A stretch of 54,213 nucleotides of DNA from Pseudolabrys sp. (GTDB taxonomy: Bacteria; Pseudomonadota; Alphaproteobacteria; Rhizobiales; Xanthobacteraceae): contig JADGGK010000014.1 of the NCBI GenBank assembly GCA_019689975.1, positions 1-54,213 of the forward strand. Direction: 5' to 3'. Position 1 is the first letter of the stretch; the number at the start of each line of letters is the position of its first letter. A model generated the notes under the pieces. That model made no database searches. It was not told the DNA's origin and was given only the letters and a program-made list of their open reading frames with translations. This document shows positions 8,678-17,780 of this stretch, in pieces. The position numbers were made by a program, and so were the translations under genes.

Positions 8678-8970
8678 CGCGACCTCACGCTCATCCGTTC
8701 CGAACTGCGAACCCCAGGCGCGGCCGGATGTTCGGGTAATGTGGGGGCATCCCGGCTGCGCGCCAAGTCCTCAACGGCGCGGCCCGGCGACCGGCGCCGT
8801 CATCGCGCGGCGCCCCGCAAGGAGCGGCGCCGCCGGGCACCGTGGTCGCCAGGCGGCATTGCAAGGCGGCCTGTTCCGCGTCGGCGCGAGGCGGCGAAGC
8901 CGCCGCAGCGACCCGGGCTCTCGTACCATTCTCGGAAGTCATGCCCGATGCGCAATGGCGGCTGCACCGG

Positions 8971-9017
8971 CTGGATTGGTTCGCCCTCGCTGCGCCCGGC
9001 CCCGGCGCAATCGCGGG
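8971..9017 (+). repeat. Decayed copy of the GTCATTGCGA-type interspersed repeat
   Basis: The 545-bp gap 8678-9222 between the divergent S41 protease and LigD-polymerase genes holds a copy that begins CTGGATTGGTTCGCCCTCGC and ends GCGCAATCGCGGG, followed by GGTCGATGCCGC. The same trailing GGTCGATGCCGC follows the copy near 5401, so more than the core was copied. No gene is recognised in the gap. Confidence 0.6.
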
Positions 9018-9222
9018 TCGATGCCGCGTTCGAGCTGAGGGGTCAAAACCGCCGCTATCCGCTATAGTCCCAGCCGAAGGAACCCGAGCGCGCCGGTCGC
9101 GGTTGCGACGGGCCGCCCCGGCGTGTTCGCGACCTGCGGTAAAGGGGCGAGCGGGCACCGAAACCATGTCGCGGATGGCGGGTGCGGCGCGCATTGGCCG
9201 CCGCATTCCGGAGCATTGTTGC

Positions 9223-10149
9223 ATGAGCGGACGCCAAGACAGTGAGCCCGCGCCGTCACGGCGTGGCGCGAGGACGAAAGCGGAAAAATCCGCGTCCGTC
9301 GCCGGGGTCGTGCTCACCCATCCCGACCGCATCTACTGGCGCGAGGGTCCGATCCGCAAGCGGGATCTCGCCGATTACTATGCGACGGTCTGGAAATGGA
9401 TTGAGCCCCACATCGTCGGCCGGCCCATGGCCGTGTTGCGGTGCCCGGAGGGCAGCGCGGGCCCGTGCTTCTTTCAGAAACACGCAAAGACCGGCATTGC
9501 CGCCGATCTGCTGCATCTCACTCCGGAAAAAGGCGACGAGATCTTTTCGGTCGATCGGCTCGAGGGGGTGATCGCCCTGGTCCAGGCCGGAACGCTGGAA
9601 ATCCATGTCCGCGGCTCGACCATCGACGATCTTACCCGCGCCGACCGGCTGGTGTTCGATCTCGACCCCGGGCCGGACGTGGGGTGGGACGCTGTCGTGG
9701 CGGCGGCGCGCGAGGTCGGTGCCCGGCTCGAACGTCTGCGGCTCAGAAGTTTCGTGAAGACGACCGGCGGCAAGGGGCTGCATGTGGTGGTGCCGATCCG
9801 TCCCGCGCCCTGGCATGCAGTCGGCGCGTTCTGCCGCGCCTTGGCCGCGGCCATGGAAAAAGACGACCCGCGCCGCTACGTCGCAAGCGCCGCCAAGAGG
9901 CGTCGTGCCGGACGCATCTTCATCGACTATCTGCGCAACAGCCACGACGCGACGTCGATCGCCCCCTACTCGACGCGCGCGCGTCCGGGCGCGCCGGTTG
10001 CGGTCCCGGTCGCATGGTCCGAGCTCCCCGCCCTCGCAAGCGCGAACCGCTATACCGTGGCAACCACGCTGCGCCGGCTCGCACGGCTGCGTGCGGATCC
10101 GTGGGCCGACCTCGCCCGCACGCACCAGACATTGCCCGACGCTGCCTGA
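9223..10149 (+). CDS. Stand-alone LigD-type polymerase domain protein (primase-polymerase)
   Basis: A 308-residue protein that is only the polymerase (PolDom) module of bacterial LigD, an archaeo-eukaryotic primase fold. Visible motifs: FFQKH (about 83-87) in the N-terminal lobe; motif I FDLDPG with metal ligands Asp146 and Asp148; motif II KTTGGKGLHVVVP with His187; motif III FIDYLRN with Asp235. There is no ligase or phosphoesterase domain, and no Ku gene anywhere in the window. Stand-alone PolDom proteins elsewhere (mycobacterial Prim-PolC) fill short DNA gaps with ribonucleotides in excision repair, so a similar role is plausible. The ATG at 9223 has GGAG nine bases upstream; the open frame extends further but without family similarity. 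Confidence 0.9.
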   Translation: MSGRQDSEPAPSRRGARTKAEKSASVAGVVLTHPDRIYWREGPIRKRDLADYYATVWKWIEPHIVGRPMAVLRCPEGSAGPCFFQKHAKTGIAADLLHLTPEKGDEIFSVDRLEGVIALVQAGTLEIHVRGSTIDDLTRADRLVFDLDPGPDVGWDAVVAAAREVGARLERLRLRSFVKTTGGKGLHVVVPIRPAPWHAVGAFCRALAAAMEKDDPRRYVASAAKRRRAGRIFIDYLRNSHDATSIAPYSTRARPGAPVAVPVAWSELPALASANRYTVATTLRRLARLRADPWADLARTHQTLPDAA

Positions 10150-12539: not shown

Positions 12540-12821
12540 ATGTCCACGACATTCGATACCATAGCCAATATTATCGCCGAGACGTGCGATATTCCGCGCG
12601 ACTCCATCAAGCCGGAGAGCCACGCGATCAACGATCTCGGTATCGACAGCCTGGACTTCCTCGACATCGCTTTCGCCATCGACAAGGCCTTCGGCATCAA
12701 GATGCCGCTCGAGCAATGGACGCAGGAAGTCAACGAGGGCAAGGCGACGACCGACCGGTATTTCGTGCTCAAGAACCTGAGCGACCGCGTCGACGAACTG
12801 GTCGCAGCAAAGGGTGCGTGA
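12540..12821 (+). CDS. acpXL: AcpXL, acyl carrier protein for the lipid A very-long-chain fatty acid
   Basis: A 93-residue acyl carrier protein. The 4'-phosphopantetheine attachment serine is Ser37 in LGIDSLDF. The longer, acidic C-terminal helix region (about 55-90) is typical of AcpXL and not of housekeeping AcpP. It carries the 27-hydroxyoctacosanoyl-type chain that rhizobia and relatives attach to lipid A. First gene of the operon acpXL-fabZXL-fabF2XL-fabF1XL-adhXL-lpxXL. No strong Shine-Dalgarno is seen. A GGAAC-N17-GTT match ends only five bases before the ATG and is discussed as a finding. Confidence 0.95.
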
Positions 12822-12834
12822 GCTGGCAACGGCC

Positions 12835-13311
12835 ATGCGCCTCGAATACTTTATGTTGATTGATCGAGTTGTCAGGCTCGATCTTGGCGCCGGCAGCATC
12901 ACCTGCGAAGCGAAGGTCCCGGACAACAGCACCATCTTCGAAGGGCATTTTCCCGGTTATCCGCTGATGCCCGGCGTGCTTTTGATCGAATGCATGGCGC
13001 AGACCGCCGGCTGGATGCTGGTTGCGGCCCACAAATTGCAGCGCATGCCCTTTCTTGCGGCGGTCAAGGACGCCAAGCTCCGCAGCTTCGTCACCCCCGG
13101 CCAGCAGCTTCTCACCGAAGCGGTTCTCAGTCATTCCGGTTCCGGCTACGCGATGACCGAGGCCAGCATTTCCTGCGAGGGCAAGCTCGTTTGCAACGCC
13201 GACATCACGTTCCGCCTGACGGGATTTCCCACCCCCGGCTTTGCCACCGAGATGCGGAAGCGCGCCGAGGCCATCGGCCTGCCGATCAGCGAGGCGCTGA
13301 CCAATGACTGA
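12835..13311 (+). CDS. fabZXL: FabZ-like 3-hydroxyacyl-ACP dehydratase of the VLCFA cluster
   Basis: A 158-residue hot-dog-fold dehydratase. The catalytic pair of the FabZ family is present: His38 in GHFPGYPLMPGV and Glu52 in LLIECMAQ. It would dehydrate the 3-hydroxyacyl-AcpXL intermediate in each elongation round. The start chosen is the ATG at 12835, which gives the family N-terminus MRLEYF; an in-frame GTG at 12814 would overlap the acpXL stop and cannot be excluded. The gene overlaps the next by eight bases. Confidence 0.92.
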   Translation: MRLEYFMLIDRVVRLDLGAGSITCEAKVPDNSTIFEGHFPGYPLMPGVLLIECMAQTAGWMLVAAHKLQRMPFLAAVKDAKLRSFVTPGQQLLTEAVLSHSGSGYAMTEASISCEGKLVCNADITFRLTGFPTPGFATEMRKRAEAIGLPISEALTND

Positions 13312-14500
13312 GGACTCGCCGCGCGAGGCATGGATCACCGGCATCGGCATCGTCTCCTGCCTTGGCGAAGGTCCCGACGCGCATTGGCAGAAGCTTACGG
13401 CCGGCGAGCCGAACGTCGACACGACGACATTCGCGCCATTCGTGATTCATCCCTTGGTCAAGCTCAATTTCGATGCACAGATTCCCAGGAAGGGCGACCA
13501 GAGGCAGATGGAGGATTGGCAGCGCATCGGCGTCTATGCGGCCGGCCTGGCGCTCGACTCCGCGGGCGTGAAGGGCAAGACGGAGATCCTTTCGCGCATG
13601 GATATGATCGTCGCCGCCGGCGGCGGCGAGCGCGATGTCGCCGTCGACTCGACGATCCTGAGCGGTCTCGCGCAGGCACGGGATCCCGCCGCCTTTCTCA
13701 ACGAGCGGCTGATGAGCGACCTGCGTCCGACGCTTTTTCTTGCGCAGCTTTCCAATCTGCTCGCGGGCAACATCTCGATCGTGCACGGCGTCACCGGTTC
13801 GTCGCGGACTTTCATGGGCGAGGAATCCGCCGGCGTGGACTGCCTGCGTATCGCGCTTGCGCGCATCGCCGCAGGGCAGAGCGACATCGCCTTGGTCGGC
13901 GGGTCCTATAATGCCGAGCGGCCCGATCTGCTGCTGCTCTATGAATTCGACGGCAGCGCGCTCAAGGGCGGTTTTGCCCCGGTCTGGGAGCGCGGGGCCC
14001 GCGGCGGCGTCGCGCTCGGCTCGCTCGGCGCGTTTCTCGTCATCGAGGCGCGGGCGCATGCGCAGGCGCGCGGCGCGCAACCGCTGGCGCGGCTCAGCGC
14101 CGTCTTCGCCGCGCGCAGCAGGCGGACGGACGGTGCGGTCAGGCATACGCTGTCGACCCTGTTGCAACGGGTCGAGGACAGGCTGATGATCGAACACGCC
14201 GCGCTGCTGTCGGGAGCGAGCGGGGCCGAGCCGGCAACCGGCGAGGAACGTGCCTTCCTGGCCGGCCATCCGGAGCTTCCCGCGCGCGCGACCGGCACCT
14301 ATCTCGGACATGCGGCGGAACCGCAATTCGTCATGAATGTCGCGCTCGCCGCCGTGGCGCTCGGACGTGCCAAGCTCTTCCCTCCCCGCGATTCCACCGG
14401 CCTCGAGAAGCCGATGCAGGCGGAGTTGCGGCAGGTCCTGGTGACCGGGGTCGGTCATTGGCGGGGCGAAGGGCTCGCCCTCGTCGAGGCGGTGGTGTAA
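13304..14500 (+). CDS. fabF2XL: FabF2XL, ketosynthase-like protein lacking catalytic residues
   Basis: A 398-residue beta-ketoacyl-ACP synthase homologue, second gene after acpXL, as in the rhizobial VLCFA cluster. Hand alignment to FabF through the flanking CLRIALARI and SDIALVGG segments places Glu174 (MGEESAG) where the nucleophilic Cys should be. The first catalytic His (NAHGT in active enzymes) aligns with SGASG (about Ser306). Only the last His is kept (LGHAAEP, His336). It therefore cannot do normal condensation alone and probably pairs with the intact FabF1XL next door, like a chain-length factor. The role is inference; the residue losses are seen in the sequence. It starts inside the fabZXL stop region (8-base overlap). 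Confidence 0.9.
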   Translation: MTEDSPREAWITGIGIVSCLGEGPDAHWQKLTAGEPNVDTTTFAPFVIHPLVKLNFDAQIPRKGDQRQMEDWQRIGVYAAGLALDSAGVKGKTEILSRMDMIVAAGGGERDVAVDSTILSGLAQARDPAAFLNERLMSDLRPTLFLAQLSNLLAGNISIVHGVTGSSRTFMGEESAGVDCLRIALARIAAGQSDIALVGGSYNAERPDLLLLYEFDGSALKGGFAPVWERGARGGVALGSLGAFLVIEARAHAQARGAQPLARLSAVFAARSRRTDGAVRHTLSTLLQRVEDRLMIEHAALLSGASGAEPATGEERAFLAGHPELPARATGTYLGHAAEPQFVMNVALAAVALGRAKLFPPRDSTGLEKPMQAELRQVLVTGVGHWRGEGLALVEAVV

Positions 14501-14512
14501 CGGAGGAGCACG

Positions 14513-15784
14513 ATGCTCTCGCTCAAAGACAAGAAGGGCCGGCCTGTCGTGGCGGTCACCGGGCTCGGCGTGATCACGTCCCTCGGCGTCGGCAAGACCG
14601 AAAACTGGGCGAAGCTCACGGCGGGCGAATCGGGAATCCGCGCCATTACGCGATTTCCGACCGACGGCCTGCGCACGCGGATTGCCGGAACAATCGATTT
14701 TCTTCCCGCAAGCGGCGCCACGGTCGACATGACCGAGCGTTTTGCCGCCCTCGCCGTCGAGGAAGCCATCGGCGAGGCAGGCGTGGGAACGCCCGGCGAC
14801 TTTCCCGGCCCGCTGTTCCTTGCCTTACCGCCGATCGAAGTCGAATGGCCGCAACGCATCGAGCTGGCCTCCCGCCTGCGCACGAACGGCGCGATCGGAT
14901 ACGACGACCTGCTGCGCGCCTGCACCGCATTCCCGGCCTATCATGAGCGTTTCCTGATCGGCTCGGTCGCCGATCATCTCGCCGATCGATTCGGAACCAA
15001 GGGCTCGCCGATCTCGCTCTCGACGGCCTGCGCCTCGGGGGCCAGCGCGATCCAGCTTGGCGTCGAAGCGATCCGCCGCGGAGAATGCGACGTCGCGCTC
15101 TGCGTCGGCAGTGACGGATCGATCAGCCCGGAAGCCGTCGTGCGTTTTTCATTGCTGTCGGCGCTTTCCACCAGCAACGAGCCGCCGCAAGGCGCGGCGC
15201 GGCCGTTTGCGAAAAACCGCGACGGCTTCGTGATGGCGGAAGGCGCCGGCGCATTGGTGCTCGAGCGCTATGACCATGCCAAGGCGCGCGGCGCCAAAAT
15301 CCTCGGCATCATCGAAGGCTGCGGCGAAATGGCGGATTCGTTTCACCGCACGCGGTCGAGCCCCGACGGCAAGCCGATCATCGGCTGCATCGCCAATGCG
15401 TTGAACGACGCGGCCCTTGGCGTCGACGACATCGACTACATCAACGCGCACGGAACGGGCACGCCGGAAAACGACAAGATGGAGCATATCGGCGTCACCG
15501 GCGTGTTCGGCGAACGCATGAAGGCAATTCCGATTTCCTCCAATAAATCGATGATCGGCCACACCTTGTCCGCGGCGGGCGCCGTGGAAGCCGTGTTCAC
15601 GCTGCTGACGTTGCAACATCAGCGCATTCCGCCCACGATCAATTATCACGTGCCCGATCCCGCGATCCCGCTTGACGTCGTACCGAACAAGGCGCGCGAC
15701 GCGCGATTGCGCCACGCCGTCTCCAATTCCTTCGGCTTCGGCGGGCAGAACGTCTCGCTGGTCATGGGGCTCGAGCCGGCGTGA
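14513..15784 (+). CDS. fabF1XL: FabF1XL, active beta-ketoacyl-ACP synthase II of the VLCFA cluster
   Basis: A 423-residue thiolase-fold condensing enzyme with every catalytic residue: Cys173 (STACASGAS), His313 (NAHGTGTPEND), Lys345 (SSNKSMIGH) and His350. It should condense malonyl units onto AcpXL-bound acyl chains. GGAGG lies just before the ATG (12 bp after the fabF2XL stop), so this gene has the best ribosome site of the operon. An insertion around residues 95-140, rich in aromatics, is longer than in housekeeping FabF and could shape a longer acyl pocket. Its stop overlaps the GTG start of adhXL by four bases. Confidence 0.95.
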   Translation: MLSLKDKKGRPVVAVTGLGVITSLGVGKTENWAKLTAGESGIRAITRFPTDGLRTRIAGTIDFLPASGATVDMTERFAALAVEEAIGEAGVGTPGDFPGPLFLALPPIEVEWPQRIELASRLRTNGAIGYDDLLRACTAFPAYHERFLIGSVADHLADRFGTKGSPISLSTACASGASAIQLGVEAIRRGECDVALCVGSDGSISPEAVVRFSLLSALSTSNEPPQGAARPFAKNRDGFVMAEGAGALVLERYDHAKARGAKILGIIEGCGEMADSFHRTRSSPDGKPIIGCIANALNDAALGVDDIDYINAHGTGTPENDKMEHIGVTGVFGERMKAIPISSNKSMIGHTLSAAGAVEAVFTLLTLQHQRIPPTINYHVPDPAIPLDVVPNKARDARLRHAVSNSFGFGGQNVSLVMGLEPA

Positions 15785-16824
15785 GCGCCGATAGCCTTCC
15801 CATGCGCGCGCTCCGGCTGGTCGACAGCCGCACGTTGAGACTGGAGGAGGTGCCCCCGCCGCCGCCTCCCGCCGACGACGAAGTGCAGGTCGCGATCAAG
15901 GCGGTGGCCCTCAACCATCTCGACCTGTGGGGTTATCGCGGCATGGCCTTCGCCAAACGGCGGCTGCCGCTGGTGGTCGGCGTCGAGGCCTCCGGCAGGA
16001 TCGCGGCGCTCGGCGCCCGAGTCGCGGGTCTGAAGCCGAACGACGCGGTCGTCATGTACGGGGCGTTGACCTGCGGTTGCTGCCCCGCCTGCGGGGAGGG
16101 CCGCGACAATCTCTGCGAAAACGTCGGCGGCATCATGGGCTTCCATGTCGACGGCTTTGCCCGCGATCGCGTCAATATGCCCGCGCGGCTGGTGATCCAA
16201 GTGCCGGACGGCGTGAGCCTGCGGGACGCGGCCTGCGCGCCGATCGCCTTCGGCACGGTCGAGCACATGCTGTTCGACAACGCCAGGCTCAGGCCGGGCG
16301 AGACCATTCTGATCCATGCCGGGGGTTCGGGAATTGGCTCCGCCGCGATCAAGATGGCCAAGGCGATCGGCTGCACCGTGATCACCACCGTCGGCGACGA
16401 CGCCAAGGCGGCGAAAGCCAAGGCGATCGGTGCCGATTACGTGATCAACTACAAGAGCGAACGTTTCGAGGGCGTCACGCGCAAGCTTACCGGGAAAAAG
16501 GGTGTCGACGTCGTGTTCGAGCATGTCGGCGGGGAAGGCTTCAACGCATCGCTTTTGTGCCTCAAGCGCGGCGGACGCCTGGTGACCTGCGGATCGACCG
16601 CGGGGCCCACGGCTACCATCAACCTGATGCAGCTTTTCCAGCAGCAGTACAAGATTCTCGCCTCATTCGGCTGCACGCTGCGCAACATTCGCGACAGCCT
16701 GTCGAAAATGGCGAGCGGGATAACCCCGGTCATCGATACCGAAGTGCCGCTGGCGGAGTTCGAAAAAGGCCTGGCACGGCTTGAAAGCCGGCAAGTGTTC
16801 GGCAAGGTCGTCGTTGTTTTCTGA
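15781..16824 (+). CDS. adhXL: AdhXL, zinc-containing MDR-family dehydrogenase/reductase of the VLCFA cluster
   Basis: A 347-residue medium-chain dehydrogenase/reductase. Structural-zinc cysteines are at about 98, 101, 104 and 112 (TCGCCPACGEGRDNLC). The Rossmann nucleotide loop is HAGGSGIGSAA (about 180-190). The catalytic-zinc Cys of classical alcohol dehydrogenases is replaced (NHLDLWGYRG), which suits a reductase acting on acyl chains better than an alcohol dehydrogenase; an enoyl-reductase role in the elongation cycle is inference. The start codon is GTG, overlapping the fabF1XL stop (GTGA). The stop shares one base with the lpxXL ATG (TGATG). Confidence 0.9.
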   Translation: MSADSLPMRALRLVDSRTLRLEEVPPPPPPADDEVQVAIKAVALNHLDLWGYRGMAFAKRRLPLVVGVEASGRIAALGARVAGLKPNDAVVMYGALTCGCCPACGEGRDNLCENVGGIMGFHVDGFARDRVNMPARLVIQVPDGVSLRDAACAPIAFGTVEHMLFDNARLRPGETILIHAGGSGIGSAAIKMAKAIGCTVITTVGDDAKAAKAKAIGADYVINYKSERFEGVTRKLTGKKGVDVVFEHVGGEGFNASLLCLKRGGRLVTCGSTAGPTATINLMQLFQQQYKILASFGCTLRNIRDSLSKMASGITPVIDTEVPLAEFEKGLARLESRQVFGKVVVVF

Positions 16825-17780
16825 TGCGGACCGCGATCAAGCGAGTGGGTCGGCGCCTGCGCCGCCGTCTCAAGAGCGCGGGCGACGCCGTCATCGGCGC
16901 GCTCGCCGTGGGCGCGCTCGAGCTGCTGCGTCGCGCCAATCCCGACCGCATGGCGGATCTTGCCGGCTGGATCATGCGGCGCGTCGGCCCGCTTTTGCCC
17001 GAGCACCGCATCGCGCGCGACAATCTGCGCCACGCGTTTCCGGAGAAGTCCGACCTGGAGATCGCGGCGATTCTCGCCGGGAGCTGGGACAATCTCGGCC
17101 GCATGGCGGCCGAGTTCGCCCACCTCGATCGCCTATGGGACTATGACCCCGAACGTCCCGACGGCGGCCGCTTCGTCATCCCGCAACAGGCGATCGAGCG
17201 TTTCAGGTGTCTTGCCGCCGACGGCAAGCCGGCACTGATCTTCGCGGCGCACCTCGCCAACTGGGAGATGCCGGGGATCTGCGCCGCGACCTACAAGCTC
17301 GACAGCGCGGTGCTCTATCGACGGCCGAACATCCCCCGCATTGCCCGCTGGATCAGCACCACGCGTGGGGCGACGATGGGCGAACTCATCTCCACCGGTC
17401 TCGAGGCGCCGATGAAGCTTGCCGAAGCGCTGCGACGCGGCGCCCATGTGGGCATGCTGGTCGATCAGTATTTCGTGCGCGGGGTGGAGGTGATTTTCTT
17501 CGGCCGGCGCACGCGTGCCAACCCGCTGATCGCCCGGCTCGCGCGCCATTTCGACTGCCCCATCCACGGCGTGCGCATCATCCGCCTTCCCGACCGACGC
17601 TTCACCGCCGAGATCACCGACGCGGTCACGCCGGTGCGCGACGCCGACGGCAAGATCGACGTCGCCGGCACCATGCAGGTGATCACCGGCATCGTCGAAA
17701 GCTGGATCCGCGAGCATCCGGAACAATGGCTCTGGCAGCACCGGCGCTGGCGGCCGGAAGACGAACGCGGCACCCCATAG
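16824..17780 (+). CDS. lpxXL: LpxXL, VLCFA lipid A acyltransferase
   Basis: A 318-residue membrane-associated acyltransferase of the LpxL/HtrB family. The H(x4)E active-site motif is His143 to Glu148 (AAHLANWEM). One amphipathic or membrane-anchoring segment lies near the N-terminus (about 20-55) after a very basic start. By position at the end of the acpXL operon it transfers the very-long acyl chain from AcpXL to lipid A, as known for rhizobial LpxXL. The ATG overlaps the adhXL stop by one base. It ends the operon; a polyamine-binding-protein gene converges on it 74 bp later. Confidence 0.93.
   Translation: MRTAIKRVGRRLRRRLKSAGDAVIGALAVGALELLRRANPDRMADLAGWIMRRVGPLLPEHRIARDNLRHAFPEKSDLEIAAILAGSWDNLGRMAAEFAHLDRLWDYDPERPDGGRFVIPQQAIERFRCLAADGKPALIFAAHLANWEMPGICAATYKLDSAVLYRRPNIPRIARWISTTRGATMGELISTGLEAPMKLAEALRRGAHVGMLVDQYFVRGVEVIFFGRRTRANPLIARLARHFDCPIHGVRIIRLPDRRFTAEITDAVTPVRDADGKIDVAGTMQVITGIVESWIREHPEQWLWQHRRWRPEDERGTP

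Follow-up and report, generated by a model that had tools for sequence, protein, structure and literature searches.

We propose that fabF2XL and fabF1XL, two adjacent genes in a 54,213-nt stretch of DNA from Pseudolabrys sp. (contig JADGGK010000014.1; this whole stretch is called the window), encode a heterodimer of the ketosynthase/chain length factor (KS-CLF) kind, in which FabF2XL is the non-catalytic partner, lines the acyl channel and probably sets the end of the very-long-chain fatty acid (VLCFA) of lipid A. To this statement as a whole we give a probability of about 0.65. Its first part, the pairing, is well supported by the sequence comparisons and the models and is likelier than the ruler function. 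The loss of catalytic residues from FabF2XL, the co-occurrence and adjacency of the two genes and a division of conserved segments between their products are observed, and the geometry of the dimer is predicted; from these we infer a heterodimer in the cell, the path of its channel and its control of chain length.

Active-site residues of FabF2XL and FabF1XL

In the alignment the catalytic set of FabF1XL is complete (Cys173, His313, Lys345 and His350). The counterparts in FabF2XL are Glu174, Ala305 (inside SGASG), Gly331 and His336. An earlier note on this DNA had already assigned these four residues to FabF1XL, and in FabF2XL had placed Glu174 at the nucleophile position and seen the NAHGT histidine replaced within SGASG; the alignment agrees on each. 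Its list of losses, Cys and the first His, was correct but incomplete, having overlooked the Lys and the FGFGG loop. Of the Cys-His-His-Lys set of FabF (KAS II), only the second His (His336) is left in FabF2XL.

Sequences of both proteins were taken from the window and 214 loci, which gave 204 distinct sequences for FabF2XL and 199 for the FabF1XL side; the sample is weighted towards organisms related to the window's or to Bradyrhizobium. Residue 174 of FabF2XL is Glu in 203 of the 204 sequences, Asp in one and Cys in none, so the earlier note's alternative, that most homologues keep the Cys, fails. The neighbouring residues are nearly fixed: Glu173 and Gly172 are present in all 204 sequences and Arg168 in 203. 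Among the 199 rows readable at the remaining sites, none has His305 or Lys331, and 183 have His336. On the FabF1XL side the nucleophile is Cys in 196 rows, X in one and a gap in two (196 of 197 readable rows), and Lys345 is kept in 195 of 196 readable rows, with Ala in one; one of the 199 rows (L197) is an ordinary FabF that got past the score filter. Judging from these sequences, the loss of catalysis in FabF2XL is accompanied by a fixed new motif, SSRTFMGEE, and is not decay.

Second copies of FabF2XL were seen at four loci of a single genus (L033:2944-4119, L185, L189 and L196, from genomes G046, G828, G862 and G916). They keep R-T-F/Y-K-GEE, and their C-terminal half is shortened or diverged, the open reading frames (ORFs) being 284-392 aa long. 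A copy of FabF1XL adjoins three of the four; the fourth, L196, ends 481 bases on.

According to published work on A. fabrum, the lipid A of fabF2XL insertion mutants has no VLCFA, which is restored in part by a plasmid carrying fabF2XL (PMC11901934); this argues against a purely polar effect on fabF1XL. Disruption of either fabF1XL or fabF2XL was reported as unobtainable in Bradyrhizobium ORS278 (PMC5613085). FabF2XL thus lacks the catalytic set and yet is needed for VLCFA synthesis, as a non-catalytic partner would predict.

Co-occurrence and adjacency

FabF2XL scored above its curated cut-off in 44 of 60 relatives, including every one of the 36 that belong to the window's genus, the source genome among them. 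At the level of the phylum it did so in 35 of 398 genomes, each of which belongs to the window's class. It was found in 63 of 249 genomes of the order and in 18 of 385 of the class. A single match below the cut-off outside the class (G520, 91 bits) proved to be an ordinary FabF with Cys and was rejected as a relative of FabF2XL. At E 1e-110, a threshold of our own setting, a draw of 385 genomes from the class gave 17 with FabF1XL, 10 of which also passed the curated cut-off. The two draws of 385 genomes bear the same handles as far as listed, and all 17 FabF1XL genomes fall within the 18 that have FabF2XL. In the sole FabF2XL genome without a FabF1XL match (G286), a contig end truncates FabF2XL.

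Of 217 FabF2XL ORFs, counting those repeated between loci, 209 have FabF1XL as a neighbour. Seven of the remaining eight stop 0-481 bases short of a contig end, and the eighth is the second copy at locus L182 described below. A tblastn search of the 68 named loci longer than 9 kb found AcpXL and LpxXL in all 68, FabZXL in 67 and the dehydrogenase in 29; in the other 39, mostly Bradyrhizobium, no adhXL-type dehydrogenase was found by this search. The ORS278 cluster, as described in PMC5613085, likewise is without the dehydrogenase. The ketosynthase pair is thus a steadier member of the cluster than the dehydrogenase, whose step must be done otherwise where it is absent.

The two genes also occur together on a plasmid of Bradyrhizobium sp. 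Ash2021 (NZ_CP100605.1, locus L220, typed conjugative), right after a gene for an S-adenosylmethionine-dependent methyltransferase. No acpXL, fabZXL or lpxXL is annotated in the 13 kb read there, from a plasmid gene table that is incomplete; this pair perhaps serves a different long-chain product.

When distance matrices were correlated over 30 genomes, the FabF1XL-FabF2XL pair was mildly favoured (partial r 0.68 vs 0.44 and 0.31).

Division of conserved FabF segments

We compared FabF2XL, FabF1XL and the housekeeping FabF without gaps in 30 matched genomes, anchoring the three proteins at the nucleophile. FabF2XL is the least variable of the three at offsets -35 to -16, with a mean entropy of 0.08 bits (FabF 0.23, FabF1XL 1.04). 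At offsets -3 to +12, around the nucleophile itself, it is the most variable, with 0.64 bits (FabF1XL 0.22, FabF 0.07). In a set of 197 pairs, residues 141-160 are the lowest of the 20-residue bins of FabF2XL (0.23 bits), and the three most variable bins of FabF1XL are 121-140 (2.53), 61-80 (2.05) and 141-160 (2.03). In the same set the N-terminal part of FabF2XL is the better conserved (1.37 vs 2.03 bits in the C-terminal part), and in FabF1XL it is the C-terminal part (1.01 vs 1.28 bits in the N-terminal part). Two segments that a single FabF keeps are thus divided between two proteins.

The segment kept by FabF2XL can be related to KasA, a long-chain ketosynthase that is a dimer in the crystal. 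Its acyl channel is described as formed by helices a2, a5 and a9 together with a5' of the partner (PMC9519891), and its arm, residues 115-145, as sliding past its counterpart across the dimer (PMC5025758). By the offset from the nucleophile (Cys171 in KasA, 163 in E. coli FabF), this arm would correspond to about residues 107-137 of FabF and, from the residue offsets, would overlap the first part of the conserved FabF2XL segment. A minor point concerns the gate residue of FabF, given as Ile108 (PMC7138838): the ungapped alignment has Gly107 of FabF2XL at this position, as Gly in 29 of 30 genomes and Ala in one.

Near the same gate, FabF1XL carries a motif of its own at residues 98-115 (positions 14804-14857), with the consensus PGPLFLAVxPxExEWPQR over 50 rows. 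A three-protein MAFFT alignment placed this motif elsewhere, and the conservation figures that it gave for FabF1XL at E. coli FabF residues ~101-130 were dropped. A circular-shift test (positions 104-113) and a claim about the FabF1XL residue at the Ile108 gate depended on the same alignment and were dropped with them. The division of segments described above is based on the gapless comparison.

Predicted structures

fabF2XL and fabF1XL lie in the same reading frame, separated by TAA and 12 bases. We read the fabF2XL stop as Gly to obtain one read-through chain, FabF2XL-FabF1XL, and folded it on an alignment of 77 rows (the window's fusion, 22 fusions, and 27 FabF2XL and 27 FabF1XL single sequences, drawn from the listed 26 fusions and 54 plus 54 singles). 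The fused model has a predicted template modelling score (pTM) of 0.83 and a mean predicted local distance difference test (pLDDT) value of 82. Its top match in the PDB is 6riw, the KS-CLF didomain of PfaC, which is matched by both halves over 941 columns with template modelling (TM) scores of 0.74 (query) and 0.67 (target) and a root mean square deviation of 5.7; single ketosynthases among the matches listed reach TM 0.42-0.45 of the fused query. The earlier note had called for a structure prediction of the heterodimer. Run as a fusion, this yields the match to a KS-CLF didomain; it does not separate the heterodimer from homodimers, with which the model is also compatible.

Folded alone, FabF2XL has a pTM of 0.86, and its conserved 141-170 stretch has pLDDT values of 32-61. 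In the fusion, the 10-residue blocks of 101-140 and 161-180 rise by 6-22 points, a comparison limited by the different alignments on which the two folds were built; changes of this kind on adding FabF1XL fit an interface in the models. A PDB search with FabF2XL alone was discarded as evidence for a CLF: its best row is the chain of an ishigamide ketosynthase, and FabF chains are equally close (TM 0.71-0.77 among the matches listed).

Proposed mechanism and alternative explanations

In the proposed heterodimer, all of the chemistry would fall to FabF1XL, which would use Cys173, His313, His350 and Lys345 to condense malonyl-AcpXL with the acyl chain. FabF2XL would have no condensing activity; its near-invariant 139-161 segment and the GGGERD turn would form the wall that the partner contributes to the acyl channel. 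The channel with this wall would hold a C26-C30 chain, and FabF2XL probably would determine where growth of the chain stops.

A number of results weigh against this proposal. Mean-field direct coupling analysis of the 197 pairs (effective number 76) placed no inter-protein pair in its top 100; the top of the list was a gap artefact at the alignment ends, and we discarded covariation as a line of evidence. Within the genus the distance-matrix correlations, 0.51 vs 0.47, hardly discriminate. FabF has 234 fixed positions, and 57 of them vary in both FabF1XL and FabF2XL, a count that depends on the alignment, so the split explains only part of FabF, and the conserved FabF2XL stretch overlaps the KasA arm in part only. 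In the fused model residues 141-170 remain at low confidence (pLDDT 44-52); compared with FabF2XL alone, residues 71-100 fall by 3-7 points and 141-150 from 61 to 52, and 151-160 stay at about 45 in both. AlphaFold might assemble any pair of ketosynthases like this, and FabF2XL alone folds no nearer to a CLF than to FabF. One second copy of FabF2XL (locus L182, genome G815) keeps GEE and has no FabF1XL downstream; the ORFs that follow it are unrelated, presumably YbaK/ProX-like and thioredoxin-like, and on the upstream side a contig end cuts it off. Finally, a mutant without any VLCFA shows that fabF2XL is needed and not that it measures the chain.

An explanation that we consider unlikely but worth keeping in view is that FabF2XL does pair with FabF1XL but only stabilises it or docks AcpXL, the length being set elsewhere, for example by the substrate choice of LpxXL or by FabF1XL alone. 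All of the evidence for pairing (co-occurrence, adjacency and the KS-CLF match) fits it equally. The position of the most conserved FabF2XL stretch argues for the channel wall instead, since it overlaps, partly and by offset, the end of the KasA arm beside the acyl channel. Improbable in our estimate is a FabF2XL that is an enzyme with a chemistry of its own, using Glu174 or Glu173 as nucleophile or base or acting as a malonyl-AcpXL decarboxylase. Gln-bearing ketosynthases act as malonyl-ACP (acyl carrier protein) decarboxylases and offer a model for this, and the near-invariant GEE would suit catalysis no less than a structural role. Decarboxylation, however, requires the first His and the Lys, which are gone in all 199 readable rows, and FabF2XL is less conserved in its C-terminal part, which in active ketosynthases bears these residues. 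The A. fabrum paper does term the product an enzyme (PMC11901934). We find it hardly credible that the two proteins form separate homodimers acting at different steps, with FabF1XL elongating the chain and FabF2XL carrying or protecting it. FabF-type ketosynthases are usually homodimers and FabF2XL is predicted with a full ketosynthase fold, but FabF1XL no longer conserves the pre-nucleophile segment that FabF keeps, nor FabF2XL the catalytic one, so that each looks like a half-site, and the co-occurrence of the two also speaks against independent dimers.

Within the KS-CLF-like heterodimer, how the end of the chain would be recognised can be taken one step further, though we regard this step as doubtful. 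The chain carries an (omega-1) hydroxyl, reported as 27-OH-C28 in A. fabrum (PMC11901934). If the hydroxyl were present during elongation, the chain could start at Cys173 of FabF1XL, cross the dimer and reach into FabF2XL, where the dead site might read its end: the near-invariant Arg168, Glu173 and Glu174 would bind the hydroxyl at C26-C30 and halt growth. Such a ruler would recognise a polar end instead of only presenting a closed wall.

If the heterodimer proposal is true, a discrete type II fatty acid system shares the solution of the polyketide and polyunsaturated fatty acid synthases with a replacement motif of its own, which would explain why two ketosynthase genes stay together. Gene swaps could then be used to ask how lipid A comes to carry C26, C28 or C30, and the annotation of an alpha-proteobacterial family would be corrected.

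Gene cluster in the window

The six genes acpXL, fabZXL, fabF2XL, fabF1XL, an adhXL-like gene and lpxXL all lie on the + strand between 12540 and 17780. The listed start of fabZXL is GTG, with an in-frame ATG 21 bases further on. The top matches among 80 named loci bear the labels Pseudolabrys, Rhodoplanes and unclassified Hyphomicrobiales. Elsewhere in the window, an ORF at 8842-10149 presumably encodes a protein resembling the polymerase domain of LigD-type DNA repair proteins.

Features of the VLCFA cluster; positions are those of the 54,213-nt stretch, forward strand
Feature	Positions	Strand	Basis or remark
acpXL, dedicated acyl carrier protein, 93 aa	12540..12821	+	NF005079.0, 169 bits vs cut-off 83; ATG start
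fabZXL, 3-hydroxyacyl-ACP dehydratase-like	12814..13311	+	FabA-like domain PF07977; FabZ models under own cut-offs
fabF2XL, ketosynthase homologue without catalytic set, 398 aa	13304..14500	+	NF005084.0, 594 bits vs cut-off 320; active-site table
FabF2XL residues 139-161, most conserved stretch, includes LRPTLFLAQLSNLLAGNISIVH	13718..13786	+	entropy in 30 genomes
FabF2XL Glu173-Glu174 codons; Glu174 at nucleophile position	13820..13825	+	
FabF2XL SGASG (residues 303-307), replaces NAHGT histidine motif	14210..14224	+	
FabF2XL residues 331-336: Gly331 for catalytic Lys, His336 the retained second His	14294..14311	+	
fabF2XL TAA stop and 12-base spacer with GGAGG	14498..14512	+	
fabF1XL, ketosynthase with complete catalytic set, 423 aa	14513..15784	+	NF005076.0, 724 bits vs cut-off 629
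FabF1XL nucleophile Cys173 codon	15029..15031	+	
FabF1XL stretch bearing His313, Lys345, His350	15449..15562	+	
adhXL, zinc-type alcohol dehydrogenase/enoyl reductase-like	15781..16824	+	PF00107 and PF08240
lpxXL, lipid A acyltransferase	16824..17780	+	NF005120.0, 429 bits vs cut-off 273

Descent and comparison with known systems

In a tree of 68 rows the FabF2XL sequences form a clade with 100/100 support, whose branch is long (2.37 + 0.94 beyond the midpoint root), and FabF1XL forms one clade among active FabF-like enzymes; judged by eye, the two subtrees agree broadly. The tree does not unite FabF2XL and three Streptomyces CLFs in a single clade, but such a grouping is not rejected by the approximately unbiased (AU) test (p 0.22). 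An origin of FabF2XL by duplication of FabF1XL was set aside, the joint clade being weakly rejected (AU p 0.03) with the long branch in play. The window's genome holds a further FabF-like ketosynthase with the full catalytic set (L222, G000:C131), which stands beside FabF1XL in the tree with weak support (83/60).

Both proteins carry names that assert activity. The profile library calls each a beta-ketoacyl-ACP synthase and the A. fabrum paper labels each product 3-oxoacyl-ACP synthase II (PMC11901934). FabF2XL is a full-length member of the NCBIfam family NF005084 (PRK06519, 'beta-ketoacyl-ACP synthase') at 594 bits, but its residues do not support the activity in the family name. The homodimeric FabF (KAS II) is like the pair in fold and in the two compared segments, of which FabF1XL and FabF2XL keep one each, with the difference that FabF holds both segments in one protein.

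With the type II polyketide KS-CLF of the actinorhodin type, the pair shares an active ketosynthase adjoining a homologue without the catalytic residues. That system is described as an obligate heterodimer with its channel at the interface (PMC12664062), the logic from which the earlier note had started. As to a non-catalytic partner of FabF1XL, this logic is supported by co-occurrence, adjacency, the split of segments and the match of the model to a KS-CLF didomain; the replacement residue departs from it, being Glu in FabF2XL and Gln in three annotated Streptomyces CLFs. In these three Asp replaces the first His, the Lys is retained and Arg replaces the second His, in contrast to FabF2XL with mostly Ala, no Lys and mostly His. 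Two further Streptomyces ketosynthase homologues, which we take to be CLFs of the ishigamide type, have Ala at the nucleophile position, and Gln may not be universal. The gene order is dead-active for fabF2XL-fabF1XL and KS-CLF in the three Streptomyces clusters, and the product is a fatty acid, unlike that of the type II polyketide pair. On this evidence FabF2XL probably works like a CLF, and common ancestry with the polyketide CLFs is neither supported nor rejected.

Among Gram-negative bacteria, ApeO-ApeC of aryl polyene synthesis is reported as a KS-CLF heterodimer by crystallography, with ApeC retaining mainly the first thiolase half (PMC8358021). FabF2XL differs from ApeC in that both thiolase halves are predicted to be present; the second copies of FabF2XL with a reduced C-terminal half resemble the half-size CLF of aryl polyene clusters. 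KS-CLF arrangements are also described in the Pfa and heterocyst glycolipid synthases (PMC3098273). PfaC, the best fold match of the fused model, shares KS-CLF logic in a lipid synthase; it is one megasynthase polypeptide, whereas FabF1XL and FabF2XL are made as individual proteins and belong to a discrete type II system that serves lipid A. We found no statement of a FabF1XL-FabF2XL heterodimer or of the KS-CLF idea for this pair in the open-licence papers searched, and subscription papers may hold one. KS-CLF pairs, including those of lipid synthesis, are already known; what is new here is a variant in a discrete type II system of fatty acid synthesis, marked by a GEE motif of its own.

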